Below, one piece after another: positions 2,917 to 38,100 of a DNA stretch of 39,528 nt. This DNA is from Bacillota bacterium. Its GTDB lineage: Bacteria; Bacillota; Limnochordia; DTU080; JAAYLA01. Position 1 is the stretch's first letter; each line of letters begins with the position of its first letter. The DNA lies in assembly GCA_012522135.1 (NCBI GenBank), contig JAAYLA010000210.1:1-39528 (forward strand), written 5' to 3'. Under the pieces are notes generated by a model that was not told the DNA's origin, did not search any database, and saw only the letters and a list, made by a program, of their open reading frames with translations. Position numbers and translations under genes: made by a program.

Positions 2917-2921
2917 GTTGA

Positions 2922-4313: not shown

Positions 4314-4448
4314 CGCGTTGATCCTCCTGCGGAAGGGAGTTCGTTCGGGCTGCGCCGCCTCCGCCCGGGCGCTGCGCCCAGGCGAAGGCCGCCCGGCATA
4401 CCGAACCCGCCCCTTCACGGTTGAACTTTCGGCGCGCGAGGCGCCGGC

Positions 4449-7124
4449 TCACTTTGAATGCCTTACGGGATTCACCTTGTCTGGATCGATGTTCAGATCC
4501 TTGATCGCCTTCTTCACTTGCGTCTTGCTTACCTTTCCATCCCGGTACAGCGTGTATAGCGTGGCCAACACGATGTAGCGGGCATCGACCTCGAAGTAGT
4601 CCCGCAGGGCCGCCCGCGATTCGCTCAGGCCGAAGCCGTCGGTTCCGAGGGTGTGGAACCTTCCGGGGATCCAGCGGGCGATCGACTCGGGCAACGCCTT
4701 CACGTAATCGGAAGCGGCCACGAAGACGCCTTCCTCGTCCTTCAGCAGCCGGGTCACGTAGGCCTCCTTCGGCTCGTCCGGATGCAGCATGTTCCACCGC
4801 TCCGTATCCAACGCGTCCCGGTGCAGGTTCTTGTAGCTTGTTACGCTCCATACGTCGGCCGACACGTCGTAGTCGGCCTCGAGGATCTCCGCCGCCTTCA
4901 AAGCTTCGTTCAAAATCGAACCGCTGCCGAAAAGGTGTGCCTTGTGCTTGGCTTGTTTGCCCGACTTCCGGAAGCGGTACATCCCCTTCAGGATGCCCTC
5001 TTCCACGCCTTCGGGCATCGGCGGCTGCGGATACGGCTCGTTGCCCACCGTAAGGTAATAGAACACTGTCTCCTGGTCGACGTACATCCGCTTCAAGCCA
5101 TCCCGGATGATGACGGCGATCTCGTAGGCGAACGCGGGATCGTAGGCCAGCAGGTTGGGAACGGGATAAGCGAGCAGATGGCTGTGTCCGTCCTGATGCT
5201 GCAGGCCTTCACCTGCGAGCGTCGTGCGGCCGGCCGTGCCGCCTACCAAGAAGCCTTTGGTCATCATGTCGGCTGCCGCCCAAATCAAGTCGCCGATGCG
5301 CTGAAAGCCGAACATCGAGTAGTAAGTGAAGAAGGGGATCGTGTTGATACCCCGAGTGGCGTACGCCGTGCCGGCCGCGATGAACGACGACATCGCACCG
5401 GCCTCGGTGATGCCCTCCTCCAGGATCTGCCCGTCCTTCTTTTCCTTGTACGGAAGGAGCGTTGCAGCGTCGACAGGTTCGTACAGCTGACCTTCGGACG
5501 AGTAGATGCCGTGCGTACGGAAAAGGGCCTCCATGCCGAACGTCCTCGCCTCGTCCGGGACGATGGGCACGATCAACTTGCCGATCTCCTTGTCCCGGAG
5601 CAGATTGCTGAGGAGCCTTACGTAAGCCATGGTCGTGCTGACCGGCCGGTCGGAACCCTTGTAGAACTCGGCGAAATGCTTCTCGTCCGGCATCGGCAAA
5701 GGCTTCGCCCGCACCTCGCGGGAAGGCAGGTAGCCGCCCAGCTCCTTGCGCCTTTCGTGCAGATAGATGATCTCGGGACTGTCGTCCTTCGGCTTGTAGA
5801 ACGGCGCGTTCGCGATCTCATCGTCCGAGATGGGAATGCCGAAACGGGTGCGGAACTCGCGCATCTCGTCCTCGTTTAGCTTCTTTTGCTGGTGCGTGAT
5901 GTTCTTGCCTTCACCGCTCTCGCCGAGGCCGTACCCCTTGATGGTCTTGGCCAAGATCACCGTGGGCTGCCCGCGGTGCTCGACGGCAGCCTTGTACGCC
6001 GCGTACACCTTCTCCGGATCGTGACCGCCCCTGCGCAACCGCTGCAGCTGCTCATCGGACAGGTGCTCTACGAGCTTCAGCAGCCGCGGGTCCTTGCCGA
6101 AGAAGTCTTTGCGGATGTAGTCGCCGCTTTCCACGGTGTATTTCTGGAACTGACCGTCGACGACTTCGTTCATGCGCTGGACTAAAAGGCCCTCGGTGTC
6201 CTTTTCCAGAAGCGGATCCCAATCGCTGCCCCAAATCACCTTGATGACGTTCCAGCCCGCGCCGCGGAATGCCGCTTCAAGCTCCTGGATTACCTTCCCG
6301 TTGCCGCGTACGGGGCCGTCGAGGCGCTGCAAGTTGCAGTTGATGACGAAGATCAGGTTGTCGAGTTTTTCCCGGGCAGCAAGGGTGATGGCGCCCAAAG
6401 TCTCGGGCTCGTCCGTCTCTCCGTCGCCCAGGAACGCCCAAACCTTCGCGTCCGACGGCTCGATGAGTCCCCGGTTTTCCAAGTAGCGCAAAAACCGCGC
6501 CTGATAGATGGCCATGATCGGCCCCAGGCCCATGGACACCGTGGGGAACTGCCAGAAGTTCGGCATCAGCCACGGATGGGGATACGACGACACGCCGCCT
6601 CCCTCACGCAGCTCACGCCGGAAGTTTTCCAGCTGCTTCTCGGTGATGCGGCCTTCGAGAAACGCGCGGGCATAAATGCCGGGGGTCGCGTGACCTTGGA
6701 AATATACCAGGTCGCCCGGGTGCTTGTCCGACGGTGCCCGGAAGAAATGGTTAAAACCTACTTCATACAACGTGGCGGCCGAAGCGTAAGTAGAAATGTG
6801 ACCGCCGATGCCGTCCTCTTCCTTGTTCGCACGCACTACCATCGCCATGGCGTTCCAGCGGATGATGCTCTTGATCCGGCGTTCGATCTCGCGACTGCCC
6901 GGATAAGGCGGCTGCTGGTGCGCCGGAATCGTGTTGATGTACGGCGTGGTGGCGGTAAAGGGGAAGCGTACGCCTCTTTGCTGCGCACGGATTTGCAGGC
7001 GTTCGAGCAGCTCTTGGGCGCGCTTTGCCCCTCCATGCTCCAGTACGTAGTCCAGGGATTCGAGCCATTCCCTGGTCTCTATGTCGACCTCGCTCAAGTT
7101 TTGAGCAATGCGAATGTCACTCAT
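4449..7124 (-). CDS. aceE: Pyruvate dehydrogenase E1, homodimeric AceE type (891 aa)
   Basis: Full-length AceE-like sequence (AFLGDGETDEPE...FVINCNLQRLDGPVRGNGKVIQELE, GRTTLAGEGLQHQDGHS). Confidence 0.95.
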   Translation of the reverse strand: MSDIRIAQNLSEVDIETREWLESLDYVLEHGGAKRAQELLERLQIRAQQRGVRFPFTATTPYINTIPAHQQPPYPGSREIERRIKSIIRWNAMAMVVRANKEEDGIGGHISTYASAATLYEVGFNHFFRAPSDKHPGDLVYFQGHATPGIYARAFLEGRITEKQLENFRRELREGGGVSSYPHPWLMPNFWQFPTVSMGLGPIMAIYQARFLRYLENRGLIEPSDAKVWAFLGDGETDEPETLGAITLAAREKLDNLIFVINCNLQRLDGPVRGNGKVIQELEAAFRGAGWNVIKVIWGSDWDPLLEKDTEGLLVQRMNEVVDGQFQKYTVESGDYIRKDFFGKDPRLLKLVEHLSDEQLQRLRRGGHDPEKVYAAYKAAVEHRGQPTVILAKTIKGYGLGESGEGKNITHQQKKLNEDEMREFRTRFGIPISDDEIANAPFYKPKDDSPEIIYLHERRKELGGYLPSREVRAKPLPMPDEKHFAEFYKGSDRPVSTTMAYVRLLSNLLRDKEIGKLIVPIVPDEARTFGMEALFRTHGIYSSEGQLYEPVDAATLLPYKEKKDGQILEEGITEAGAMSSFIAAGTAYATRGINTIPFFTYYSMFGFQRIGDLIWAAADMMTKGFLVGGTAGRTTLAGEGLQHQDGHSHLLAYPVPNLLAYDPAFAYEIAVIIRDGLKRMYVDQETVFYYLTVGNEPYPQPPMPEGVEEGILKGMYRFRKSGKQAKHKAHLFGSGSILNEALKAAEILEADYDVSADVWSVTSYKNLHRDALDTERWNMLHPDEPKEAYVTRLLKDEEGVFVAASDYVKALPESIARWIPGRFHTLGTDGFGLSESRAALRDYFEVDARYIVLATLYTLYRDGKVSKTQVKKAIKDLNIDPDKVNPVRHSK

Positions 7125-7337
7125 ACCTATACCGTCCTTTCACCTAGGCACTCCGAACGGAAACGGCTCAACCGAATGCGTCTATATACAGCTCGGGTCC
7201 CTACGGGAGAGGCGTGAAGGCGCGACAAACCCTTGCGGAGCCACTCCGTCCTAGGATCCGGCAATGCACGGCCTCCCAAACGTCAGGGACCGACCGGTGG
7301 CGCAAACATATTCTGGCAAGCGTCGTGACCCACGTCC

Positions 7338-7366
7338 ATCATAACATAACATTTGCCACTTGGCAG
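7338..7366 (-). promoter_or_regulatory. Putative sigmaA promoter for aceE with an inverted repeat over the -35 element
   Basis: Minus strand CTGCCA - 17 nt - TATGAT; TGCCA-CT-TGGCA repeat at 7354-7365. Confidence 0.4.
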
Positions 7367-7492
7367 CCCCCACAGCCTGTACGAGCGCAAATTTATCCGT
7401 TGCTCCCGTATGAATATACCAACCAAGGGCCGTAAACAGGACCACTGTCCCGACAAGTTCAGTCTACTCTGCCCGGGTGACGTTTAGTAAAC

Positions 7493-8731
7493 TTAGTACA
7501 AGGGCATCCCCTTGTGGTACGATTCGAGGCGCTGTTTGACGCTTCGCAGAAACCGTCCGCACACGGCGCCGTCCAAGATGCGGTGGTCGAGTGACACGCA
7601 TAGGTTGACCATCCAGCGGATGGCGATGCCGTCGCCGATGACGACCGGCCGGCGAGTGATCGTTTCCATGCTGAGAATGGCCGCCTGCGGGTAGTTGATG
7701 ATGGGTGCCGACAAAATCGAACCGAAAGCGCCCGTGTTGTTGATCGTGAAGGTACCGCCTTGCACGTCTTGCGGCCGCAGCTTGCCGGCCCGGGCCCGGG
7801 TCGCGAGATCGGCGACGGCCTTGGCGATGCCGGCGATGCTCAGCTGGTCGGCGTTGTGGATCACCGGTACGATGAGCCCGTCCTCCAGGTCGACGGCGAC
7901 GCCGATGTTGATCTGCTTGCGGATGACGATCTGGTCGTCCTCCCACATGGAGTTCATAATCGGGTATTCCTTCAAGGCCTCGACGGCCGCCTTGATCACG
8001 AAGGGCAGATAGGTCAAATTGACCCCCTCGCGCCGCCGAAACTCGGCCTTGATGCTCTCGCGCCACTCGACCAGGTTCGTCACATCCACTTCAACCATAG
8101 TCCAGGCGTGCGGGGCGGTCTGCACGCTGCGCACCATCCGTTGGGCGATGGCACGCCGCATGCTCGTCAGAGGCAATATCTCGTCCCTCGCATCGCGGCC
8201 GTAGGCAAATTCCTCAGCCTCCGGCGGCGCGGCCTCGCTCCGCCCGCTCCTTGTTTTCTCTTCGATCGCACGCAGCATGTCCCGCTTCGTGACGCGTCCG
8301 CCGGCACCCGTTCCCCGCACGCTCTCGGGATCGATGCCGTGTTCCCGAGCGAGGCGCCGCACGGCCGGAGAGTATCGGTGACCCTTTTCCGGATCATAAC
8401 CCGCCTTGGCAACCGCCTCCCGGGCCTTGCCGGCAGACTCGGCTCTGTCCCCTCCGTCACCTTGGCCCGGGCCCGGGCCGCGGTCGGCTCCCTCCTCGGT
8501 CGCGATGACGCAGATCACCTTGCCGACGGGAACTACTTCCCCTTCCTGCGCACACAGCTCCTCCACGACGCCGCTCACGGGCGACGGCAGATCCGTGCTC
8601 ACTTTATCCGATTCGACTTCCGCCAGCGGCTCATCGGCCCGAACGATATCGCCTGGCCTCTTCAGCCAGCGTACGATGATGCCTTCGACTACGGTCTCAC
8701 CCAGCTTGGGCATTCTGATCTCAACTGACAC
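7493..8731 (-). CDS. 2-oxoacid dehydrogenase E2 (branched-chain/pyruvate type lipoyl acyltransferase)
   Basis: Lipoyl motif VESDKVSTDLPSPVSG, E3-binding domain VRRLAREHGIDPESVRGTGAGGRVTKRD, SLDHRILDGAVCGRFL. Confidence 0.93.
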   Translation of the reverse strand: MSVEIRMPKLGETVVEGIIVRWLKRPGDIVRADEPLAEVESDKVSTDLPSPVSGVVEELCAQEGEVVPVGKVICVIATEEGADRGPGPGQGDGGDRAESAGKAREAVAKAGYDPEKGHRYSPAVRRLAREHGIDPESVRGTGAGGRVTKRDMLRAIEEKTRSGRSEAAPPEAEEFAYGRDARDEILPLTSMRRAIAQRMVRSVQTAPHAWTMVEVDVTNLVEWRESIKAEFRRREGVNLTYLPFVIKAAVEALKEYPIMNSMWEDDQIVIRKQINIGVAVDLEDGLIVPVIHNADQLSIAGIAKAVADLATRARAGKLRPQDVQGGTFTINNTGAFGSILSAPIINYPQAAILSMETITRRPVVIGDGIAIRWMVNLCVSLDHRILDGAVCGRFLRSVKQRLESYHKGMPLY

Positions 8732-8793
8732 ATAAGGCGCCGCCGCGGACCTCGTTCCGCGCGGCTACCTCCTTCCCTTGCACGATAATGCGA

Positions 8794-9780
8794 TCAGAGC
8801 GTCGCCAGGTTGCGCAAGGCCTCGGCCATCTTTTGCTGGTCGGGCATAGCGAAATCTTCGAGCGACTTGGCATAAGGCATTGCGGGAATGTCCGGTGCCG
8901 CCAGCCGATTCACGGGCGCGTCCAGGTGCCAGAAGGCTTTTTCCGCAATGCGCGCCGCAATTTCGCCTCCGATGCCTCCCGTGAGGTTGTCTTCATGCGC
9001 GATCAACACCTTGCCCGTCTTGCGCACGCTGCTCAAGATCGTCTCCTCGTCCAACGGCAGCAGCGTCCGCAGATCGACCACCTCGACGTCGATTCCCTCC
9101 CGCGCCAGCTCCTCGGCCGCGGCCAAGGCATAGTGCACCATCAGGCCATACGTGATGACCGAGACGTCCTTGCCTTCCCGTTTCACGTCGGCCTTGCCTA
9201 TAGGTATCTCGTAGGGCTCCTCGGGCACTTCCTGGCGAAACCCGCGGTAAGCCAATGCGTTCTTGTGCTCGAAAAAGAGAACGGGATCGGGATCCTTGAC
9301 GGCGGCCCGCAGCAACCCCTTGACGTCGTAGGGCATGACGGGCGCGACGATTTTCAGACCCGGCGTACTGAAGAACAGGGCCTCGACCGATTGGGAATGG
9401 TATAACCCGCCGGTAATGCCTCCTCCGTACGGTGCCCGCACGACGATCGGACAGGAAAAAGCACCGTTGGAGCGATATCGCATCTTGGCGGCCTCGTTGA
9501 CGATCTGATCGACCGCGGCGTGGATGAAATCGGCGAACTGGATTTCGGCGACGGGAAGCAGCCCGCCCAGAGCCGCTCCGATCGCGATGCCCACGATGCT
9601 CGCTTCGGCCAAGGGCGTATCGATGACCCGTCCCGGGCCGAAGGCTTCCAAGCAGCCCTCGGTCGCGCCGAACGTTCCGCCCATCTCTACGTCTTCACCG
9701 AGGACGAAGACCCTTGGATCTTCCTCCATGATTTCGCGCAGCGTGCTGTTGATGGTTTCGATGGTGTTTTGCAATGCCAT
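8794..9780 (-). CDS. 2-oxoacid dehydrogenase E1 component beta subunit
   Basis: EDVEMGGTFGATEGCLEAFGPGRVIDTPLAEASIVGIAIGAAL; ILIAHEDNLTGGIGGEIAARI. Confidence 0.95.
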   Translation of the reverse strand: MALQNTIETINSTLREIMEEDPRVFVLGEDVEMGGTFGATEGCLEAFGPGRVIDTPLAEASIVGIAIGAALGGLLPVAEIQFADFIHAAVDQIVNEAAKMRYRSNGAFSCPIVVRAPYGGGITGGLYHSQSVEALFFSTPGLKIVAPVMPYDVKGLLRAAVKDPDPVLFFEHKNALAYRGFRQEVPEEPYEIPIGKADVKREGKDVSVITYGLMVHYALAAAEELAREGIDVEVVDLRTLLPLDEETILSSVRKTGKVLIAHEDNLTGGIGGEIAARIAEKAFWHLDAPVNRLAAPDIPAMPYAKSLEDFAMPDQQKMAEALRNLATL

Positions 9781-10787
9781 TACGCCGAGCCCTCCTCCGC
9801 ATAAACGTGGCGCAGCGCGGTCGGACCTTCGGGCGGAGGCGCGGCCTCGGCCTTGCGAGCTGCTTCCAACGCCTCCTGCCGCGCCCGTTCCTCGAGTTGC
9901 TCCAGTTCTTCAGAGGAGGCAAGTCCGTGGGACAGCACGTACTCCCTGAGGCGGCGCACCGGATCCTGCTCCCTGCGGGCACGTTCCACCTCTTCCCGCG
10001 GCCTGTACTTGCGGTCGTCGTCATTCGTCGTGTGGGGATCCATGCGGTAAGTGAGGGCCTCGATCAGGGTCGGCCCCTCGCCTCGCCGGGCCCGTTCCAC
10101 CGCTTCGCGCATGGCGCCGTAGACCGCAAACACGTCGGCGCCGTCCACCGTCACGCCGGGTATGCCGTAGGCCAACGCCCGGGTGGCAACATTCGGCACG
10201 GGCGACTGCTTCGCAAAGGGCACCGAGATGGCATAGCGGTTGTTTTGGCAATAGAAAATGACGGGCAGTTTGTGGATGGCGGCGAAGTTGATCCCCTCGT
10301 GGAAGTCGCCTCGCGAAACGGCACCGTCGCCGAAGGAGACCCATACCACCTTGTCTTCCCCCTTCAGCTTGACGGCCAGGCCTAGCCCCGCCGCGTGGGG
10401 AATTTGCGTCCCGACGGGACTCGAGCCGGAGGGGATGTTCAAAGCCTTGTGCCCCCAGTGCTTCGGCATCTGGCGCCCGCCGCTCGACGGGTCGGCGGCC
10501 CGCGCGAATTCACCGAGCATGATCTCCTCCGGCGTCATACCGAGGGCCAGCACGACGGCGGTGTCGCGGTAATACGGCATTGCGACGTCGTGACCGGCAC
10601 GCAACGCCCACACCGCCCCGACCTGGGCACCTTCGTGGCCGATACCGGTGACGGTAAAGGCGATCTTCCCTTGGCGATATAAGATGTTCGCCCGTTCGTC
10701 CAAAGCCCTGGCCAAAACCATGGTGCGGTACATGGCCAAGACATCGCCGTCAGATAGCTCTAGGGCAATGTGTGGCAGTGCATTCAC
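9780..10787 (-). CDS. 2-oxoacid dehydrogenase E1 component alpha subunit
   Basis: TPP-binding GDGAVSRGDFHEGINFAAIHKLPVIFYCQNNRYAIS; stop overlaps the E1 beta start (TAATG). Confidence 0.95.
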   Translation of the reverse strand: MNALPHIALELSDGDVLAMYRTMVLARALDERANILYRQGKIAFTVTGIGHEGAQVGAVWALRAGHDVAMPYYRDTAVVLALGMTPEEIMLGEFARAADPSSGGRQMPKHWGHKALNIPSGSSPVGTQIPHAAGLGLAVKLKGEDKVVWVSFGDGAVSRGDFHEGINFAAIHKLPVIFYCQNNRYAISVPFAKQSPVPNVATRALAYGIPGVTVDGADVFAVYGAMREAVERARRGEGPTLIEALTYRMDPHTTNDDDRKYRPREEVERARREQDPVRRLREYVLSHGLASSEELEQLEERARQEALEAARKAEAAPPPEGPTALRHVYAEEGSA

Positions 10788-11236: not shown

Positions 11237-11632
11237 ATGACCGATCAGGATCTGATGAACGCCGCCCTGACCGCCCTCAAGCACCAAAGCCACGTATATC
11301 ACGGGCTCACGGAGCACACGGCGAACGAGGGGCTGCTGCGCGAGATCTCAACCCTTCTGAACGAAAAGCAAAGCATGCGCCTGCGTGTGTTCGAGGCGAT
11401 GAACCGGCGGGGATGGTACAACCCGCAACTGATCTCGCAAGCCCAATTGGATCAGCACAAGCAACGCATGAACCAGACGTTCCAGCAGCTGCAGCAGGCA
11501 CCGGCCTACGCGACCGGTCCAGCGCAGTCACCGGGAATCAGCCATCCGGGCATCACGTATCAGGCCTGGGGTCACATGCCACACCCGCAGGCACAGCAAC
11601 CAGCCTGGCAAGGAGCGCACGGCCCGCATTGA
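11237..11632 (+). CDS. CotF-family spore coat protein
   Basis: MTDQDLMNAALTALKHQSHVYHGLTEHTANEGLLREISTLLNEKQSMRLRVFEAMNRRGWY; Gln/Pro-rich C-terminus. ORF track starts at 11228; first likely Met is at 11237. Confidence 0.75.
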   Translation: MTDQDLMNAALTALKHQSHVYHGLTEHTANEGLLREISTLLNEKQSMRLRVFEAMNRRGWYNPQLISQAQLDQHKQRMNQTFQQLQQAPAYATGPAQSPGISHPGITYQAWGHMPHPQAQQPAWQGAHGPH

Positions 11633-15792: not shown

Positions 15793-16617
15793 ATGGAACT
15801 TCCAAAAGGCAGAATTCGTCCTCGGGTCGGCCGCCTGCCCTATTTGTTTGCGCTGCCGTTCACTGCGCACTGGGAGGGGGCCGACCGCTTTGAGTTGATC
15901 ACGGCGCCGCCGCGCCAACTCGGCCATCTGACTCGCCACGACGAACTGGACGCAGCGTGCGTCCCCGTTCTCGAGGCTCGATCGCTCAGCCGCCGTTACG
16001 AACCCCTGGGCAACCTGGGGTTCGCTGCCGTTGGCCCCGTGCCCGTGGCCGTACTGGCCGCGCGCCTGGAAATCGAGCTCTTGGGCAGCGCCGCCGTTGG
16101 CGTCTCCGATCAAGGCGCCACCGCCGTGGCCGCGCTCGAGGTGCTGCTTTCCCACGCGTACCGGGTGCGGGAACCGAACATCGTGCCGCTGTCTCCGGAC
16201 CGTTTCGACCTCGGCGCCGTTCTGCTCGTCGGAGACGATGCGATCGAGGCCAGCCGCTCGCCCTCCGCTCCTTTCGTGCATCCCTATGACCTCGCCGGCG
16301 AGTGGCGCAATTGGACCGGCGGTCCGCTTCCCCTTTGCCGCTGGATAGTGCGCAAGAGCTTGCCGGACGAGCAAAAGGAGGAGCTCGAAGCCCTTGTGCG
16401 GCGCAGCGTCACCGAAGTGCTGAAAAATCCCGGTCCGCTGCTCGAATCCCATATCGTCGAGCACGGCCTGTCCTGCTCCGTGCTCGATGCCGAGGCGTGG
16501 CTGCGCTCGTGCACCTATGAGCTCGGACCGGCGGAGGAGCGGGCCGGGCAGCACTTATACGAGCTCCACCGCGAGCTGCATCGCAAAGTCACTTCCTGGC
16601 GCGATCTGTTGGGCTAG
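15793..16617 (+). CDS. MqnA/MqnD-family (menaquinone biosynthesis, chorismate dehydratase-like) protein
   Basis: [13 protein letters not shown] near the N-terminus, periplasmic-binding-like fold pattern with [19 protein letters not shown]; divergent. Confidence 0.6.
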
Positions 16618-17957
16618 GCTCCGCGCCCCGCCTCGGGCGGGTCTTGCAGGTCGAACACGCCGCAAGCCGGCTGCAGAAGCTTTCCAGCAACCGTGCCGTT
16701 GCCGGCCTCCGGCCGGTCGCCCGGCGCGATGATCGTCAGCCCGTCCTGACCGGGTTGCATGAGCCGGGCGACCCCTTCCTCCGTCCCCTGCGCCCGCCGG
16801 CAATACTCGCACTTCGAAGGGTCGTGGGTGTCTCCGTGCTCGGGTTCAGGGTACGACACCACGCGGCCTTCGTAGTTGCGCAGCACGATCTTGCCCGGCG
16901 ACTGGGAAAGAATGTAGTTCGGCCCGACCGGGATCTTGCCTCCGCCCCCCGGCGCGTCCACCACGAAGGTCGGCACGGCGTAACCCGACACGTGGCCGCG
17001 CAGGTGCTCGATGATCTCGATGCCTTTCGATACGGGGGTCCGGAAGTGTTCTATGCCCTCGGACAAGTCGCACTGGTACAGGTAATACGGACGCACTCTG
17101 GCCTTGACTAGCCCGAGCACCAGCTCCTTTTGTATGTAGGGGCAGTCGTTTACGCCCCGCAGCAGCACCGTCTGATTGCCCAACGGAACGCCCCCGTCGG
17201 CTAGCTTGGCCAAGGACTCGACGGCCTCCTTGGTCAGCTCCTTCGGGTGGTTGAAGTGGGTGTTGATCCAGATCGGATGGTACTTGCGGATCATCTGCAC
17301 GAACTCGTCCGTAATGCGGAACGGATTCGTCACCATAACCCTTGTCCCGAAACGGATGACCTCTACGTGGGGGATCTCCCGCAGTTTCTTCAGAATGTAT
17401 TCCAGTCGGCTGTCACCGAGGGACAGGGGGTCGCCTCCCGATATCAACACGTCGCGAACTTGCGGTGTCCTGCGGATATACTCGATCGCCCGATCGATTG
17501 CCGGCGTCGGAATGCTTCCTTCCTTCGACCCGACGAGCCGGCGCCGCGTGCAATGGCGGCAGTACATCGCGCACATCTCGGTCACGATGAAAAGCACGCG
17601 GTCCGGATAGCGGTGGGTGATGAAGGGCACGGGCGAGTCGACGTCTTCGTGCAGAGGATCCCGCATGTCGTGCTTGCCGATGATCGCCTCATCGTCCAAG
17701 GGCAGAGCCTGGCGGCGAATGGGGCACTCCGGATCGTCGGGATCCATGAGCGCGGCATAGTAGGGGTTGATGCCGGCGGGGAACCCCCGCTGGGCATACC
17801 TCAACCCCTCCTCCTCCTCGGGCGTCAGGTTGATTACCTGCTTCAGCTCATCTATCGTACGCAGGCGATTGCGCACCTGCCATTTCCAGTCGGTCCACTC
17901 TTCGATGGAAACGTCCTTCCACAGAGGGATCTCTCGGTAGTCGCGCACCGATTTCAC
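16614..17957 (-). CDS. kamA: L-lysine 2,3-aminomutase (radical SAM, PLP)
   Basis: [15 protein letters not shown] radical-SAM motif; [16 protein letters not shown] and [15 protein letters not shown]-terminal DPSKCEYC. Confidence 0.93.
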
Positions 17958-19923: not shown

Positions 19924-20069
19924 CAATGTGCATCATACCATGACATATGCCCTTTGACCAGTCAAGGATAAGAAACGAATTGCGTTTGTGCGGGCGTTGC
20001 CAGTGTGTTAAGGTAGAGGCGAGGTCGGGACGAATGTCCGGACCATGCCGTTGCAGGATGGTGTTCACC

Positions 20070-20954
20070 ATGGAAGTGATCAAGATCTCGCCGCGCGGCT
20101 ACTGCTACGGAGTGGTCGATGCGATCAATCTTGCCAAAGTAGTGGCCAAAGATCCCAAGTACCCGCGGCCCATCTACGTCCTGGGTATGATCGTCCACAA
20201 CCGGCATGCCGTGGCCGAGTTGGAAGAATACGGCATCGTCACGCTCGACGGTGAAAATCGCCTGGAACTCCTCGACCGGATCGATGCGGGCACCGTCATC
20301 TTCACCGCGCACGGCGTCTCACCGCAAGTCGTTGCCAAGGCGAAAGCCAAGGGGTTGACGACTGTCGATGCAACGTGCCCCGACGTGACGCGCACCCATG
20401 AGCTCGTGCGAGATCTCGCGTCGCGGGGCTATCAAATCATCTACGTAGGAAAGCGGGGCCATCCGGAACCGGAGGGAGTCATTGGCGAAGCCCCGCACCA
20501 CGTGCACCTGGTGGAGACTTTGGAAGACGTCGAGCGGCTGGAATTCGATACCGACAAACTGGCCCTCACCACCCAGACGACCTTGAGCCAGTGGGACACC
20601 CAGGCCATCATCGAACGGTGCGTCGAGCGCTTCCCCGGCATCGAAGTGTACAATGAGATCTGCCTGGCCACCCAACAAAGGCAGGAGGCGGCGGCTACGC
20701 AAGCGAAGGAGGCGGACGTCGTCCTTGTCGTGGGCGACGAGCGGAGCAACAATTCGAACCGGCTCGTTCAGGTCGTGCGCGAGCTGGCTGGACGCCCCGC
20801 CTACCTGGTCGACAGCGTCGAGTCCATCAATCCCGAGTGGCTGCGGGGCGCGCGCAAAGTCGGCGTGACGTCGGGATCCTCCACGCCGACGTACATAACC
20901 CGGGCAGTGATCAAGTACCTGGAAGAGCTCGATCCCGAGGCCGTGCCCTCGTGA
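20070..20954 (+). CDS. ispH: 4-hydroxy-3-methylbut-2-enyl diphosphate reductase
   Basis: SPRGYCYGVVDAI, IVHNRHAVAELEEYG, TVIFTAHGVSP, DATCPDVTRTHE, VGDERSNNSNRL, VTSGSSTP. Confidence 0.96.
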   Translation: MEVIKISPRGYCYGVVDAINLAKVVAKDPKYPRPIYVLGMIVHNRHAVAELEEYGIVTLDGENRLELLDRIDAGTVIFTAHGVSPQVVAKAKAKGLTTVDATCPDVTRTHELVRDLASRGYQIIYVGKRGHPEPEGVIGEAPHHVHLVETLEDVERLEFDTDKLALTTQTTLSQWDTQAIIERCVERFPGIEVYNEICLATQQRQEAAATQAKEADVVLVVGDERSNNSNRLVQVVRELAGRPAYLVDSVESINPEWLRGARKVGVTSGSSTPTYITRAVIKYLEELDPEAVPS

Positions 20955-24013: not shown

Positions 24014-24236
24014 CCCACCTTCCCGCCGCAATCGTCCGCCGCGCCCGCGCCGCGGCGTTCGCCGGGCACCGGGTATTTCGGCTACAGCGTGCTGAGTACT
24101 TCGTCAATGGAGTATGCAGCCCCTGCCGGCGTGACGGTTGTCCCATTCTTGCCTGCCAAAGATAGCACTCCTCTGCCCGGGACAAGGTTCCGGGTGCAAC
24201 GACGGTGAAAAGGTCCTGAGGGAGGCTGCTGCATCC

Positions 24237-25124
24237 GTGGCTGCGACGCAGGACGACATCCGAGGTGCCGATTTTCTGCACTGGTCGAAAAAACACTATG
24301 AGAACTTCACCGTCGTCTCGCTGCTGCTCCCGCGCCGCCTGCGCCGCCCGGTGCGCTTGCTGTACGCCTACTGCCGTTACGTGGACGATTTGGGCGACGA
24401 AGCGCCGGGCGACCGCCTCGCGCGGTTGGACGCGTTCGAGCAGGACTTGGAGCGGTGTTACGGGGGTACGCCCCGTCACCCCCTGCTGCAGACCTTCCAA
24501 CCGGTAATTGTCCAGTACGGCCTGCCCCGGGGGGAGCTCTGGGCGCTCATCGAGGCCAACCGGATGGATCAAGTAGTGCGCCGCTACGAGACCTTTTCCG
24601 ACCTCGTGCACTATTGCCGCCACTCCGCGATGCCGGTAGGGCGCCTATTTCTCAAGCTGCTCGGCTACGACGATGCCCGGCGCATACAGCTTTCGGACGC
24701 CACGCGCACGGGACTGCAGCTCGTCAACTTCTTGCAGGACGTCGGTGAAGACTACGAAAAAGGCCGCATCTACTTGCCCGGCGACGACATGGCCCGCTTC
24801 GGTGTGTCTGAGGAGCACATCGCACGGCGTGACGCTACGCCCGAGTTCCGCACCCTGATGCAATTCGAGGCGGATCGCGCTCGCGCCCTGCTCTATGCGG
24901 GCCTTCCGTTAGCGGAGACGGTGGAGGGCCTGGCCCGGGTCGACGTGCGCCTTTTTTCCTATGGGGGTTTAGCCGTTTTGGATGCCCTGGCTGACGCCCG
25001 GTACGACGTGTTTGGCCGGCGAGTCCGCGTTGGGAAGCTGCGGAAGGCCGGGCTTTTCTTGCGGGCAGCGCTGTGGCTTTTGCGCTCTCGCCGCCTCCCG
25101 CCGTGGAAGGGAGAATGCCGATGA
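24237..25124 (+). CDS. hpnC: Squalene synthase HpnC-like
   Basis: ENFTVVSLLLPRRLRRPVRLLYAYCRYVDDLGDE; QLVNFLQDVGEDYEKGRIYLP; GTG start with GGGAGG. Confidence 0.85.
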   Translation: MAATQDDIRGADFLHWSKKHYENFTVVSLLLPRRLRRPVRLLYAYCRYVDDLGDEAPGDRLARLDAFEQDLERCYGGTPRHPLLQTFQPVIVQYGLPRGELWALIEANRMDQVVRRYETFSDLVHYCRHSAMPVGRLFLKLLGYDDARRIQLSDATRTGLQLVNFLQDVGEDYEKGRIYLPGDDMARFGVSEEHIARRDATPEFRTLMQFEADRARALLYAGLPLAETVEGLARVDVRLFSYGGLAVLDALADARYDVFGRRVRVGKLRKAGLFLRAALWLLRSRRLPPWKGECR

Positions 25125-25990
25125 ATCCGACCCGAGCTCTGCTGCGAGCTTACGGAACCTGTACGCAAATTGTCAGGCGCAACGCGCGCAATTTCTACTA
25201 CGCCTTCCTCTCGCTGCCAAAAGCCGAGCGCGCTGCGATTCACGCCGTTTACGCTTTCTGCCGCCTCGCCGACGACGCGGCGGACGGCACCGGCAGCGTG
25301 CGGTCGAAGAAGGCCCGGCTCGACGAATACCGCCGCCTGCTGGACCGGGCCGTGGCGGGCCGCGCGGAGGATTCAGTCTTCATCGCCCTGTCCGATGCCA
25401 TTCGGCGTTTTCGTATATCGCCAACCTTGTTTCACGACCTGCTCGACGGGCTGACGCAAGATCTCACCGTCACGCGCTACGAGACGTACGACGACATGAA
25501 ACGCTATTGTTACCTCGTCGCATCGACGGTAGGGCTGATGTGCCTGCCCATCTTCGGCGCCCGAGACGAAAAAGCGAAGCAACACGGCGTCGACTTGGGC
25601 CTGGCCCTCCAGATTACGAATATCCTGCGCGACGTAGGCGAGGATGCGGCCCGCGGACGCATCTACCTGCCCCAGGAAGATCTGCGCGCCCACGGCTACA
25701 CGGAAGATGAGCTTCTTCGCGGCGTCGTCAACGATGCGTTCCGGGCCCTTATGAGTCAGCAGGCAGCGCGGGCCAGAAAGCTTTACGCCTCCGGCCGGCA
25801 AGTGCTCAGGTACATTCCGGAACGCACGCGTGCATGCCCTGAACTGATGTACCGCGTGTACGGCCGGATATTGGAGATGATCGTGGAGGCTGACTACAAC
25901 GTCTTTGACCGCCGCCTCGGCCCCGGCAAGTGGGAGAAGGTGCGCATGGTAGGCGAAGTCTGGCGCCGTACGGCGCTGAGCACATCGTGA
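25115..25990 (+). CDS. hpnD: Presqualene diphosphate synthase HpnD-like
   Basis: NFYYAFLSLPKAERAAIHAVYAFCRLADDAADG; LQITNILRDVGEDAARGRIYLPQEDL. Confidence 0.87.
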   Translation: MPMNPTRALLRAYGTCTQIVRRNARNFYYAFLSLPKAERAAIHAVYAFCRLADDAADGTGSVRSKKARLDEYRRLLDRAVAGRAEDSVFIALSDAIRRFRISPTLFHDLLDGLTQDLTVTRYETYDDMKRYCYLVASTVGLMCLPIFGARDEKAKQHGVDLGLALQITNILRDVGEDAARGRIYLPQEDLRAHGYTEDELLRGVVNDAFRALMSQQAARARKLYASGRQVLRYIPERTRACPELMYRVYGRILEMIVEADYNVFDRRLGPGKWEKVRMVGEVWRRTALSTS

Positions 25991-27309
25991 CCGTAGTGAT
26001 CGTAGGTGCCGGCCTTGCGGGCATTACAGCCGCGGTTCGGTTGACCGATGCCGGCCTGAAGGTGCTGCTTTTCGAACGCAGCCGGCATCTGGGCGGACGG
26101 GCGGGCTCGGCCCCAGACCCCACTTCCGGCCGGGAACTCGATTTCGGCCAACACGTCTACCTTTACTGCTGCGAACGGTACCGTCTGCTCCTGCGCAGGC
26201 TGGGCACTGAAAGCCTGGCGCCGCTGCATCGCCCCATGCGCATCCGGGTGATCGACGCGCACCGGGACGCGCTGCCGGGAAAGGGGGCCACCCTGTACTC
26301 GACCTCGCTACCCACGGGCTTGCACCTGGTGCCTGCCTTCTTGCGGTACAGCCACCTGAGCGTCCGTGAACGCATGGAGACGGCCCGCATCCTGCTGCGG
26401 CTGCTGCATCGTGACCGCACGGCAGGCGAGTTGGAGACGTTGACATTCGGCGATTGGTTGCGCGGCCAGGGAGCGAGCGAGACTTCACTGCGGTCGTTCT
26501 GGAACGTCGTCACGGTGGCGGCTTTAAATGCTGCTGTAGACGATGTCAGCGCAGCCTGGGGCTTCATGCTTTTTCAGACCGGGTTGCTGGCGAACAGGCG
26601 GGCGGCGGAGGTGGGTGTACCCCAAGTGCCCCTTTCCCGGCTTGTAGCGCCGGCGGAGAAGATTATAGCGGACGGCGGCGGAAAGCTGCTCCTGCAATCG
26701 CCCGTGGCGCAGGTTGAAGTCGAAAGGGGGCGCGCCAAGGGAGTCCGGCTGGCCGACGGCACAAGGGTGCCCGCCGACGCCGTGGTCGTTGCCACGGCAC
26801 ACCGCCAGCTTCCAGGCCTTTTGCCGCACGAACACGCGGGCCACCCCTTCTTTTCCGAGGTCCTGCAGCTGCCGGTGCGGCCCATAATCGACGTCCACAT
26901 GGGCTTCGCCGCTCCCGTGACGTCCCCCGAATTCTCGTTTGCCGTATTCTTGAACTCCCCCGTGCAGTGGGTATTTGCCCACGAAGGGGGCAGACGGCTA
27001 GCGGTCTCCATCAGCAACCCGGTCGATTTCCGGCGCGCAAAGCGCGACGAAATCGCCGGAGCCGTCACGGCCGAAGTGCAGCGCCTTTTCCGCTGCGGGC
27101 GGCCGGAGTGGATCGCGGTGCGGCGCCATGCGAGCGCGACCTTCGACGTCGGACCCGGCAAGGCGCGGTTTCGGCGACCCCAGAAGACACCGATCGCCCG
27201 CCTTTACGTTGCGGGCGACTGGACGGACACTGGCTGGCCTGCGACCATGGAAGGCGCCGTGCGCAGCGGTGAGCTGGCCGCAGACGCCGTCTTACAAGAC
27301 TTGCGCTAG
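25987..27309 (+). CDS. hpnE: Hydroxysqualene dehydroxylase HpnE-like FAD amine oxidase
   Basis: VIVGAGLAGITAAVRLTDAGLKVLLFERSRHLGGRAGS; C-terminal YVAGDWTDTGWPATMEGAVRSGE. Confidence 0.9.
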   Translation: MTVVIVGAGLAGITAAVRLTDAGLKVLLFERSRHLGGRAGSAPDPTSGRELDFGQHVYLYCCERYRLLLRRLGTESLAPLHRPMRIRVIDAHRDALPGKGATLYSTSLPTGLHLVPAFLRYSHLSVRERMETARILLRLLHRDRTAGELETLTFGDWLRGQGASETSLRSFWNVVTVAALNAAVDDVSAAWGFMLFQTGLLANRRAAEVGVPQVPLSRLVAPAEKIIADGGGKLLLQSPVAQVEVERGRAKGVRLADGTRVPADAVVVATAHRQLPGLLPHEHAGHPFFSEVLQLPVRPIIDVHMGFAAPVTSPEFSFAVFLNSPVQWVFAHEGGRRLAVSISNPVDFRRAKRDEIAGAVTAEVQRLFRCGRPEWIAVRRHASATFDVGPGKARFRRPQKTPIARLYVAGDWTDTGWPATMEGAVRSGELAADAVLQDLR

Positions 27310-33398: not shown

Positions 33399-35009
33399 AT
33401 GCAGTTCGACCCCGAGTACATGCCGTACCCGTCCCGGCGGGCGTGCGTCTACGCGAAGAAAGGAATGGTCGCGGCGCAGCACGGGCTGGCCGCCCAAGCA
33501 GGCCTTTCCATGCTGCAGCAGGGAGGAAACGCCGTCGATGCTGCGGTCGCGGCGGCCGCGGCCCTCACCGTGCTCGAGCCGACCTCAAACGGCATCGGGG
33601 GCGACGCCTTTGCCCTCGTGTGGAGCGGCGGGCAGCTCCACGGCCTCAACGCCAGTGGACCGGCGCCGAAGGGGTTTAGCAGGCAGGCTTTGCAGCGGCT
33701 CGGTCTGGACCGCATCCCGCGGGACGGCGTCGTACCGGTTACGGTTCCCGGCACGCCGGCGGCTTGGGTCGCGCTCTCCCGCCGCTTCGGTCGGCTACCC
33801 TTGACGACGGTACTTTCCCCGGCGATCCGCTATGCCGAGGAAGGTTTTGCCGTATCCGCGAACGTCGCCTACCTCTGGCGCCGCGCTTTCGCCCGCTACC
33901 GCCACGAGTGCCACGGCCCGGAATTCACGCCTTGGTTCAAGACGTTCGCGCCGCAAGGCCGTGCCCCCCACGCCGGGGAAACCGTGCGCTTGCCGGACCA
34001 CGCCCGCACGCTGAAGGTTATAGCAGAAACGGAAGGCGCTGCTTTTTACCGCGGGGAACTGGCAGAACGCATCGACGGGTTCATGCGCGAACACGGCGGT
34101 TTCCTCCGCAAAGAAGATCTGGAAACATATCGTCCCGAATGGGTGACGCCGATCTCGATCGAGTACCGGGGCTACCGGGTATGGGAGCTGCCGCCCAACG
34201 GACACGGACTCGTTGCGCTGCTGGCCCTGAACATACTAAAGGGCTTTGACTTGGGAGACGTCCGCGAGTCGGTCGAGGCGTACCACAAGCAAATCGAGGC
34301 TCTGAAACTGGCTTACGCCGACGGCAAGCGCGTCATCGCGGATCCGGCTTGTATGCGCGTCTCCGTGGAGGAACTGTTGTCGGAAGAATATGCGGCCGAG
34401 CGGCGCAGGCTCATCGGCAAGGAAGCGCTGGTGCCGGAACCCGGCCGCCTCGCGCGCGGCGGTACGGTCTACCTAGCCGCGGCGGACGCCGAAGGAAACA
34501 TGGTCTCCTACATTCAAAGCAACTACATGGGTTTCGGATCGGGAATCGTCATTCCGGACACCGGCATCGCCCTGCATAACCGAGGCCACAACTTCACACT
34601 CGAACCCGGCCATCCGAACGCCCTAGCGCCCGGCAAACGGCCCTATCACACCATCATTCCCGGCTTCCTAACCCGGGGCGAACGACCCGTAGGTCCCTTC
34701 GGCGTCATGGGCGCCTTCATGCAGCCCCAAGGCCACGTGCAGGTAGTGGTGAACACGATAGACTTCGGCCTCAGCCCCCAAGCGGCGCTCGACGCTCCTC
34801 GTTGGCAGTGGCTCGAGGGCAAACAAGTCGCTCTAGAGCGCGGCGTTGCCGAGCACTTGGAGCTGGCCTTAGCGCGGCGCGGCCATGAAGTGGTCGGTCC
34901 CCTCAAGCCGGGCAGCTTCGGCTTTGGACAGATCATATGGCGAACCGACGACGGTGTCCTGATCGGCGGAACGGAGCCCCGCACCGATAGCGGCATCGCC
35001 GCTTGGTGA
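33399..35009 (+). CDS. Gamma-glutamyltransferase family protein (YwrD-like, no signal peptide)
   Basis: QGGNAVDAAVAAAAALTVLEPTSNGIGGDAFALVW; Ntn nucleophile region GGTVYLAAADAEGNMVSYIQSNYMGFGSGIV; ends GGTEPRTDSGIAAW. Confidence 0.9.
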   Translation: MQFDPEYMPYPSRRACVYAKKGMVAAQHGLAAQAGLSMLQQGGNAVDAAVAAAAALTVLEPTSNGIGGDAFALVWSGGQLHGLNASGPAPKGFSRQALQRLGLDRIPRDGVVPVTVPGTPAAWVALSRRFGRLPLTTVLSPAIRYAEEGFAVSANVAYLWRRAFARYRHECHGPEFTPWFKTFAPQGRAPHAGETVRLPDHARTLKVIAETEGAAFYRGELAERIDGFMREHGGFLRKEDLETYRPEWVTPISIEYRGYRVWELPPNGHGLVALLALNILKGFDLGDVRESVEAYHKQIEALKLAYADGKRVIADPACMRVSVEELLSEEYAAERRRLIGKEALVPEPGRLARGGTVYLAAADAEGNMVSYIQSNYMGFGSGIVIPDTGIALHNRGHNFTLEPGHPNALAPGKRPYHTIIPGFLTRGERPVGPFGVMGAFMQPQGHVQVVVNTIDFGLSPQAALDAPRWQWLEGKQVALERGVAEHLELALARRGHEVVGPLKPGSFGFGQIIWRTDDGVLIGGTEPRTDSGIAAW

Positions 35010-35124
35010 CGGCCGGCAAAAGGCCTTCTGCCCCTGCCGGGCGAATGATTACCGAGGACGTACTGCGCCGCGTGCTTCCGGAACCGTCCGGGGGCACGCG
35101 AGGCTTTCTTAGGAGGCGATGTGG

Positions 35125-35964
35125 ATGCAGTGGCTGGACGCGCGGGATAGCGATACGCTGATGATTCGTCACCGCGTCGTTAACAGCGTGCACAAAGAAC
35201 GGTCTGCGTATCAGGAGATCGAAGTCATCGACACGGTCGACTTCGGCCGCATGTTGCTTCTAGACGGCATCATCCAAACTTCAGTACGCGATGAGTTCAT
35301 CTACCACGAGATGCTGGCCCACGTTCCCCTTTTCGTCCACCCGAATCCGAAGCGCGTGCTCATCATCGGCGGCGGCGACGGCGGCACGCTGCGCGAGACG
35401 CTAAAGCACCCGTCCGTTGAAGAAGTGCACTTGGTCGAGATCGACGAGCGGGTGATCGACGCTTCCAGGAAATATTTGCCCGAGCTCAGCGGCGGTTTCG
35501 ATGACCCCCGGGCGAAGGTGGTGATTCGTGACGGCATCGAGTACGTTGCGGAGGTAAAAGGGGCCTACGATGTGATCCTCATCGACGCTCCCGATCCCGA
35601 AGGCGCGGCCGTGGGACTGTTCAGCACCGATTTCTATGCGAACGCGCGCGACGCCCTGGGGGACGATGGCGTGCTGGCAGCCCAGACCGAATCTCCCTTC
35701 ATAGATCCGAAGCTGGTAAAGGAAATCTATGACCGCATCTGGGCACAGTTCCCCCTGTGCCGCCTGTACACTGCGCACGTCCCCTCGTACTCGGTCGGCA
35801 TTTGGAGCTTCGCACTGGCATTGAAGCGCCCCGAGATGTTCGAGCGATATCGCAGGGCTGGCGGCGAGTTCAAGACCCGTTACTACAATTCCGAAATCCA
35901 CGCGGCCGCCTTCGCCTTGCCGGAGTACATTCTTGAGCTCCTCGGCGACAAAGCGCGGGCGTGA
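35125..35964 (+). CDS. speE: Polyamine aminopropyltransferase (spermidine synthase)
   Basis: LLLDGIIQTSVRDEFIYHEMLAHVPLF; IIGGGDGGTLRETLKHPSVEEVHLVEIDERVID; IDAPDPEGAAVGLFSTDFY; SD AGGAGG favours ATG 35125 (ORF track opens at 35119). Confidence 0.95.
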   Translation: MQWLDARDSDTLMIRHRVVNSVHKERSAYQEIEVIDTVDFGRMLLLDGIIQTSVRDEFIYHEMLAHVPLFVHPNPKRVLIIGGGDGGTLRETLKHPSVEEVHLVEIDERVIDASRKYLPELSGGFDDPRAKVVIRDGIEYVAEVKGAYDVILIDAPDPEGAAVGLFSTDFYANARDALGDDGVLAAQTESPFIDPKLVKEIYDRIWAQFPLCRLYTAHVPSYSVGIWSFALALKRPEMFERYRRAGGEFKTRYYNSEIHAAAFALPEYILELLGDKARA

Positions 35965-36042
35965 CGCTGTTCCACCGGGAAGGGTGATCTGCAAAGGCGA
36001 GCCGCGCATAGGCTAGACTATCTCGAGCCCCGCCCCGGGCCG

Positions 36043-37437
36043 GTGAGGTTGAACTCCTTGCGCGTGCTCGTCCTTCACCCATCCGACACGGCAGTCCGTG
36101 CTCTTGCCCCGTTCCTTGCGGGCGCGGCGGTTCGCACCCGGCACCCGGGAGGAGCGTGGGACGTTCTCGTGCGTTGGGGCTATGCGGACGGCCCCGACGC
36201 GCCCTACACGTTGAACCCGTCTTGGGCGTTGGCCCACGCGGCGGAACCTGCAGCGGCGCGCGCTTTACTGCAGCTAAACGGCGTGCGCTGCCTTACCGAG
36301 TCTACGACAAAGCGCCTATCCACCAGGTCTGTCGTCGCGCTCCGTATCCACGCCGTCGATCTGTGCACCGTGGCGATTCGGCGCCTGATCGGGGACCGAG
36401 AGATGCCCGTGCGCAACCTCTCCCCGCGCAGCGCGCACGTGCTGGAGACCGTGGCGCGCCGGGCCCTGTACGCGCTGGGGCTCCACTTCGGCGCCGTCGA
36501 TGTCGTGGTGGCAGCCACCGGCAGACCATTCGTGCGCCGGGTCGACCCCTCTCCCTCCTGCGATGACGAACTTGCCCGTCTGTACGGTGTGGAACTTGCC
36601 CGATCCCTGCGTACTTTGGCCGTGGACGCAGCCGAACCGCCGCGATCCCGCGCGTCCCGCCTGCTTCTCGGCGCCGATCCGGAGTTCGTCATCGTCCGCC
36701 GCGACAACCGCACGCTGCGCTGCGCGTCGGATCTGTTCCCGATGGACGGCAGCGTGGGATACGACCGTCAACGCACGATGCTCCACGGCCGGCATTGCCA
36801 CCCGATCGCTGAAATCCGTCCGTCACCGAGCGGTTCGCCTTACGCTTTGGTCGAACACGTCCGCACCGAACTCAAGAAGGCGTACCGCTTGGCACCCGAC
36901 AGGAACGCAGATTGGCTGGCCGGTGCCCATCCCGCCCCAGGGTGTTTCACCGGGGGACACGTTCACTTCAGCGGCATCCGTCCTACGACGTTTCTCCTGC
37001 GGGCCCTCGACAATTACCTAGCCCTGCCCTCGCTGCTGATGGAAGATCCCGGCCTTGCGCGGGCCCGCCGGCGACGCTACGGACTGCTCGGTTCTTTCCG
37101 GCGCAAAGAGCACGGCGGCTTCGAGTACAGAACCCTCAGCAGCTGGCTAACGGGCGTGCGCCGGGCCCGCAGCACCCTCTGCCTTGCCAAATTGGTGGCC
37201 GTGGAATACCCCCGGCTCCGACGGCACCTGCTCGCCACGCCGCAGGCTCACCGCGCCTTTTACCACGGAAAAAAAGAGGTCTTCCGGGAGGCGGTGGAAG
37301 CGCTATGGGATGACATGCGCGGCACCGACTCGTACCAAGAGTTTAGTCAAGATCTGGAGGGGACGCGCATATGGATTCTTAACCGACGGCAATGGCGCGA
37401 GGGGGCCGATTTAAAAAGGCTTTGGCGCGTCGTTTGA
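36043..37437 (+). CDS. Putative COOH-NH2 ligase type 2 (phiEco32-like amidoligase) with N-terminal ATP-grasp-like region
   Basis: C-terminal LLGADPEFVIVRR, HPIAEIRPSPSG, GGHVHFSG, GSFRRKEHGGFEYRTLSSWLTG; N-terminal ALGLHFGAVDVVVAATGRPFVRRVDPSPS. TTG 36058 (SD GGTGAGG) is an alternative start. Confidence 0.8.
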   Translation: MRLNSLRVLVLHPSDTAVRALAPFLAGAAVRTRHPGGAWDVLVRWGYADGPDAPYTLNPSWALAHAAEPAAARALLQLNGVRCLTESTTKRLSTRSVVALRIHAVDLCTVAIRRLIGDREMPVRNLSPRSAHVLETVARRALYALGLHFGAVDVVVAATGRPFVRRVDPSPSCDDELARLYGVELARSLRTLAVDAAEPPRSRASRLLLGADPEFVIVRRDNRTLRCASDLFPMDGSVGYDRQRTMLHGRHCHPIAEIRPSPSGSPYALVEHVRTELKKAYRLAPDRNADWLAGAHPAPGCFTGGHVHFSGIRPTTFLLRALDNYLALPSLLMEDPGLARARRRRYGLLGSFRRKEHGGFEYRTLSSWLTGVRRARSTLCLAKLVAVEYPRLRRHLLATPQAHRAFYHGKKEVFREAVEALWDDMRGTDSYQEFSQDLEGTRIWILNRRQWREGADLKRLWRVV

Positions 37438-37464
37438 AACCATGTCACACCCCGCCGTGCGGTG

Positions 37465-37472
37465 CATAGGAT
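37465..37472 (+). promoter_or_regulatory. Putative sporulation (sigmaE/sigmaK-like) -10 element upstream of cotE
   Basis: CATAGGAT with CACAC about 14-16 nt upstream. Confidence 0.35.
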
Positions 37473-37545
37473 GTGCTGATTCAGTTGTCGGCCGCCCGGT
37501 GACGCATCCTTACGGGGATAGAGACGAATAGGGAGTGAGAACTCG

Positions 37546-38100
37546 ATGGGAGAGTTTCGGGAGATTTACGTGAAGGCGGTCTGCGGCCGCAGCCGGCACG
37601 CCTTTCACGATACGAACATACTCCACACCGACCGTGCCGTCGACGAGATCCTAGGGTCCCGGGTCACGAGTCACCAGTTCGCCGGTGTGGTCACGAGTGC
37701 GGGCGTGAAGATCAACGGCAGCTACGATATCCACGTCTGGTTTACCCACTCCGGCGGCCAGAACACGACCGTCCTCACGAAGACGATCGATTACAGCCGG
37801 GTCATATCCTTTGAAGAGCTCGGCATCGATCCGGGCGGATGCGACAACCCGCAGGCCACCGTGCGGCTGACCCACGGCCCGATCTGCTCGGACGGAACGC
37901 TCGTCGCGGGATCGGCTATTCGCTGCACCGTCGACGTCGGCTACCTCATCGAGGTGATCGGCGACACCAAGTTGTGTGTCAAGCATTACCCGGGCGCGTG
38001 CGACGACAGCATAAAGAAGGAGTTCATCGACCTGTTCGACGACGAGTTCGAGGACGAGTTCACGGACGAGTTCGACGAAGAGGAAGACTTGGTCGGGTAA
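37546..38100 (+). CDS. cotE: Outer spore coat morphogenetic protein CotE
   Basis: MGEFREIYVKAVCGRSRHAFHDTNIL...ILGSRVTSHQF...VKINGSYDIHVWFTHSGGQNTTVLTKTIDYSRVI...EVIGDTKLCVKHYPG and an acidic tail, matching CotE layout. Confidence 0.9.
   Translation: MGEFREIYVKAVCGRSRHAFHDTNILHTDRAVDEILGSRVTSHQFAGVVTSAGVKINGSYDIHVWFTHSGGQNTTVLTKTIDYSRVISFEELGIDPGGCDNPQATVRLTHGPICSDGTLVAGSAIRCTVDVGYLIEVIGDTKLCVKHYPGACDDSIKKEFIDLFDDEFEDEFTDEFDEEEDLVG

Follow-up and report, generated by a model that had tools for sequence, protein, structure and literature searches.

The COOH-NH2 ligase of family PF14395 and the coat morphogen CotE are encoded by adjoining genes on the stretch of DNA analyzed here (denoted the window; 39,528 nucleotides), and the link between these two genes is real, old and kept far beyond close relatives. 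We consider it probable that the ligase is an amidoligase associated with the coat, which acts late in the mother cell on carboxylates of the spore coat, and that it belongs to a module with CotE and ATP-grasp ligases of the YheC/D type; the two genes that precede it in the window, encoding a gamma-glutamyltransferase (GGT) and the spermidine synthase SpeE, would lie outside this module.

Gene content of the window and the upstream neighbours of the ligase

The window corresponds to one contig (C304) of a genome of 3.22 Mb in 399 contigs. Open reading frames and profile matches agree in placing GGT, SpeE, the ligase and CotE on one strand with short intergenic gaps of 109, 78 and 108 nt (Table 1), as the original prediction had it. 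The CotE profile, PF10628, scored 102 bits against a cut-off of 25. SpeE lay above the NCBIfam equivalog cut-off, and GGT, at 341.9 bits, slightly below the TIGR00066 cut-off of 357.85. Two CotF-like proteins had also been assigned to the window; one Coat_F protein is indeed encoded there (11240-11428, + strand), and the other was located on contig C291.

Table 1. Positions of the genes, domains and putative regulatory elements at the ligase-CotE locus (nucleotide positions refer to the window, aa positions to the ligase).
Feature	Position	Strand	Length or placement	Basis or description
GGT	33399-35009	+	536 aa	G_glu_transpept 4e-153; signal peptide: none evident
Terminator-like hairpin	35069-35100	+	between GGT and SpeE	14 pairs, then T-rich stretch
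SpeE, spermidine synthase	35119-35964	+	281 aa	Spermine_synth 6e-64
Sigma-K-type -10-like element of ligase	36007-36015	+	27 nt before ligase start	CATAGGCTA
PF14395 COOH-NH2 ligase	36043-37437	+	464 aa, GTG start	PF14395 8e-85
Predicted degenerate ATP-grasp domain	ligase aa 1-205		N-terminal	structure match
PF14395 GS/GCS-fold COOH-NH2 ligase domain	ligase aa 209-463			profile match
Sigma-K-type promoter-like element of cotE	37447-37473	+	72 nt before start codon	AC - N16 - CATAGGATG
CotE coat morphogen	37546-38100	+	184 aa	PF10628 3e-29
Oligoendopeptidase F (M3, PepF)	38309 to window end	+	next gene after cotE	

The four genes had originally been joined in a single polyamine and gamma-glutamyl pathway, in which the ligase would attach the spermidine made by SpeE to carboxylates of the coat or of gamma-glutamyl peptides, and the bond so formed would be trimmed by GGT. 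The common orientation and close spacing of the genes in this single genome speak for such a pathway, and amidoligase chemistry would permit an amine acceptor; the gene neighbourhood of relatives, however, largely refutes it. GGT was found near no ligase locus beyond the window among the surveyed and mapped genomes. SpeE occurred within 10 kb of the ligase in one other surveyed genome (G089, at a distance of 5.7 kb), which is about chance level. In ten relatives that carry the ligase and share order or class with the window genome, no SpeE gene was present on a ligase contig, and the homologues were found on other contigs; these assemblies are fragmented, yet the mapped ligase contigs hold neither SpeE nor GGT. 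Six ligase genomes gave no SpeE-family match. Within the window, a terminator-like hairpin stands between GGT and SpeE, which is weak by itself because the hairpin scan yielded no excess over shuffles. The promoter elements also differ: CATA, part of the sigma-K-type element described below, does not occur in the 160 nt upstream of GGT, SpeE or PepF in the window. We judge SpeE and GGT to be accidental neighbours of the ligase-CotE pair here, an outcome that the original prediction had itself allowed for and that the lack of linkage in relatives supports, and we regard the joint pathway as highly improbable. Gene neighbourhoods in relatives rule out GGT and SpeE as conserved partners of the ligase, and the polyamine idea is thereby removed as a starting place.

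Linkage of the ligase to CotE and YheC/D genes

We surveyed 300 genomes from the phylum by profile search for PF14395 and CotE; genes outside the window were called with a simple ORF picker. PF14395 matches were obtained in 37 genomes, or in 36 once G234 is set aside, which was left out because its match is partial and resides in an aberrant fused protein. CotE exceeded the cut-off in 37 of the 300 genomes and accompanied the ligase in 24 (Fisher p=1.4e-17 for co-occurrence, calculated over genomes that are related). In each of these 24 genomes the two genes lie on the same contig, 93-6612 bp apart with a median of 2.2 kb; the genomes are related to each other and do not amount to 24 independent events, and the surroundings of the pair differ. 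Paenibacillus and Brevibacillus have the order cotE-ligase-mutS. Family f17 has CotE-CotE-AG-AG-AG-AG-LIG (AG, YheC/D ATP-grasp gene; LIG, ligase gene), families f23 and f60 have CotE-AG-LIG-AG-AG, and LIG-CotE-AG-AG is the arrangement in f5, a family of the same class as the window genome, with the ligase-to-CotE order seen in the window. Ligase and CotE genes are close together wherever both occur in the survey, and of the four-gene neighbourhood proposed originally it is the ligase-CotE part that is conserved, the GGT and SpeE part that is not.

The ligase also occurs without CotE. Twelve of the surveyed ligase genomes have no Pfam CotE on record, most of them belonging to family f21 (Syntrophomonas/Thermosyntropha), and CotE is likewise missing beside the ligase in f55; in five relatives from the order of the window genome, the ligase and YheC/D genes are present and CotE is absent. 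Because of these 12 genomes, CotE cannot be an obligate substrate of the ligase. Further genes were seen at particular loci. In those of the Syntrophomonas/Thermosyntropha type (L003, L005, L006, L062-L069), a gene for an AstE/AspA (M14/M99-like) amidohydrolase follows the ligase on the opposite strand in every mapped case. At five loci of family f17 (L037, L038, L070, L072, L074), the opposite strand beside the ligase encodes a Mur-ligase-like protein (PF08245/PF02875 for the one tested, in L070) and a small protein of 126 aa that matches no Pfam family.

Maps of 54 loci revealed that the usual third partner of ligase and CotE is a set of YheC/D-type ATP-grasp genes, and every AG protein tested proved to be a member of PF14398, the YheC/D ATP-grasp family. 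In genome G089, a single 924-aa protein (L056:8567-11338, - strand) contains PF14395 followed by PF14398 and represents a natural ligase-YheC/D fusion. The fused protein of G234 mentioned above (L059) has 907 aa and comprises a YheC/D domain together with the merely partial PF14395 match. YheC/D genes are usual but not universal near the ligase: none is present in the window, and they are absent also from the Paenibacillus and Brevibacillus loci. The genome from which the window derives carries four YheC/D genes on contig C360 and a fifth on C175.

The same genome has a second ligase, 37% identical to that of the window. It is encoded on C360 (locus L035:3487-11281), where a GNAT-like gene accompanies it and the four YheC/D genes; CotE is not present at this locus. 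In the ligase tree, the CotE-linked copies from same-class genomes are joined by the C360 copy, and the window ligase falls into a sister group, so that two ligase lineages exist in this genome. We considered whether the window pair is orthologous to the same-class LIG-CotE pairs and rejected this, since the tree places the C360 paralogue, and not the window ligase, with them.

Upstream of the CotE and AG genes we observed an AC-spacer-CATAnnnT element that resembles the sigma-K promoter type, as judged by sequence match. CATAnnnT was preceded by AC, with a spacer of 17 nt exactly, at 23 of 29 sites for CotE and at 20 of 43 for AG genes; among 554 other genes in these loci the spacer profile was flat. 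Counted by locus with spacers of 15-17, the element was found for CotE at 24/31, for AG genes at 25/43, for the ligase at 5/56 and for all other genes together at 16/59. As a full promoter of this type is seen at only five of the 56 ligase loci, transcription probably often reaches the ligase from an upstream gene. In the window, the putative cotE element has a spacer of N16 versus the optimum of N17 in relatives, and the ligase has a -10-like element with no match to AC at the -35 position. In B. subtilis, P2 of cotE is a sigma-K promoter, and yheC/yheD are controlled by sigma-E with SpoIIID (PMC517825).

Domain architecture and proposed role of the ligase

The PF14395 profile matched the window ligase with 284.6 bits (curated cut-off 25) and was covered over positions 1-254 of 254. 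The motifs GADPEF, AEIRP, GGHVHFS, RRRYG and GGFEYRT are all intact, and each of the five contains residues that are invariant in 14 sequences that share 31-39% identity with the window ligase; the conserved motifs are of the acidic, Arg and His type, as in the GS/GCS-type fold. No sequence relative of the ligase was found in the PDB. An AlphaFold2 model of the whole chain (pLDDT 87.5, pTM 0.90) matched YbdK (1r8g), glutamine synthetases, ATP-grasp enzymes and the bifunctional glutathione synthetase 3ln7 in Foldseek. When the N-terminal 205 residues were modelled alone (pLDDT 80.9), all of the 50 best matches were ATP-grasp proteins (Ddl, ArgX, RimK, PsnB, MdnC and others). The TM-scores were modest, about 0.4 to 0.6, and support the fold class, not the detail. 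The N-terminal domain, with ~205 residues against 240-300 in ATP-grasp enzymes, is about 100 residues shorter; only A138, G146, L147 and V152 are invariant in this region, and the catalytic and metal-binding residues of an active ATP-grasp enzyme are not conserved. We read this predicted architecture as a degenerate ATP-grasp domain ahead of an intact GS/GCS-fold amidoligase.

The apparent decay of the ATP-grasp half would fit a protein that serves as a structural or scaffolding component of the coat with its enzymatic activity unused, and coat enzymes are sometimes structural. We hold this to be very unlikely, because GS/GCS-type motif residues that stay invariant across 14 sequences with identities of 31-39% point to selection for catalytic function. 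To our knowledge, activity has been demonstrated for no PF14395 ligase.

In the amidoligase reading that we favour, CotE, the YheC/D-type ATP-grasp ligases and the PF14395 ligase would form a module with late, sigma-K-type expression in the mother cell. We infer from its fold class, GS/GCS, that the ligase would acylphosphorylate a carboxylate of a coat component, or of a precursor peptide bound for the coat, and would then join the activated carboxylate to an amine; the YheC/D ligases may act in concert with it and add further residues. The nearest candidate acceptor would be the acidic C-terminal tail of CotE, in which 17 of the last 40 residues are D/E. This acidic tail restrains formation of the CotE meshwork until it is neutralised by Ca (PMC11980541). 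Neutralising or lengthening its carboxylates could accordingly be expected to alter Ca-dependent meshwork assembly. By analogy with the tail modification made by RimK or seen in tubulin, one may go further and suppose that the amidoligase and YheC/D enzymes extend or cap the tail carboxylates, and that assembly of the meshwork round the spore is triggered by enzymatic neutralisation of charge as well as by Ca; we consider this more specific proposal decidedly improbable. Tail acidity was also examined as a mark of ligase genomes and discarded: acidic tails occur in some ligase-free genomes, and the difference is weak (p=0.049, with phylogeny not removed).

The main rival to modification of coat carboxylates is that the product of the ligase and the YheC/D enzymes is a layer of non-ribosomal peptide or poly-amino acid, or a small metabolite, deposited in or on the coat, which CotE would organise while remaining unmodified. 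Three observations speak for it: a cluster holds several differing YheC/D paralogues, as if residues were added one after another; an AstE/AspA-type amidohydrolase or Mur-ligase-like gene is near the ligase in some clusters; and families f21 and f55 have the ligase without CotE. The hydrolase and Mur neighbours are clade-specific, however, and the clusters contain no recurrent transporter, precursor gene or carrier protein. We rate such a layer or metabolite as unlikely.

Relation to known systems and other genes of the window

The window ligase shares the full-length domain, all motifs and the setting of CotE and YheC/D neighbours with the PF14395 'Phage phiEco32-like COOH.NH2 ligase-type 2' proteins of Firmicutes; unlike their clusters, the window locus has no adjoining YheC/D genes and is preceded by GGT and SpeE. 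Iyer et al. 2009 (Mol BioSyst) reportedly noted such ligases near CotE and YheC/D and predicted a role in the coat or cell wall, and the Pfam entry text of PF14395 presumably gives the same context with a predicted function in coat biosynthesis. The CotE/YheC/D/ligase association was reportedly predicted before, and the window locus is a further example of that kind. Added here are the quantified linkage, the spacing of the promoter-like elements, the ligase-YheC/D fusion and the predicted degeneracy of the ATP-grasp half. A literature search retrieved no paper reporting a PF14395 ligase in spores and no experimental work; nor did we find reports on the reaction or substrate of this enzyme cluster, which is widely conserved and tied to the main outer-coat morphogen.

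In its predicted fold, the window ligase is alike to YbdK, glutamine synthetase and GshF, with low identities of 8-15%. The ATP-grasp half of GshF is C-terminal and active, whereas that of the window ligase is N-terminal and apparently degenerate. The N-terminal domain shares its predicted fold with the ATP-grasp peptide ligases RimK, ArgX and PsnB/MdnC, from which it differs in the shorter length and the missing catalytic residues noted above; these enzymes act on the acidic tails of proteins or peptides and provide a working analogy for the ligase. The spore-coat transglutaminase Tgl needs no ATP. It introduces amide cross-links into the coat (PMC6490927), and to that extent is like the ligase in its proposed role, the enzyme being unrelated. 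B. subtilis YheC/YheD are of the same ATP-grasp family (PF14398) as the usual partner genes and are under mother-cell control (PMC517825); the ligase differs from them in fold, and the YheC/D genes of the window genome are on other contigs. With the conserved linkage, the spacing-locked sigma-K-type promoter elements and the fusion, a coat-modifying amidation pathway becomes open to direct testing in Paenibacillus or Brevibacillus.

Elsewhere in the window, 16617-17957 (- strand) encodes a lysine 2,3-aminomutase, a radical SAM protein with LAM_C; kamA of B. subtilis is a sporulation gene. Two kinds of pyruvate dehydrogenase E1, an AceE-like single chain and a split alpha/beta form, adjoin at 1501-10787 (- strand), each with its own E2. 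A squalene/phytoene synthase gene followed by one for an amine-oxidase-type desaturase occupies 24138-27309 (+ strand), and IspH (LytB) is encoded at 19947-20951.
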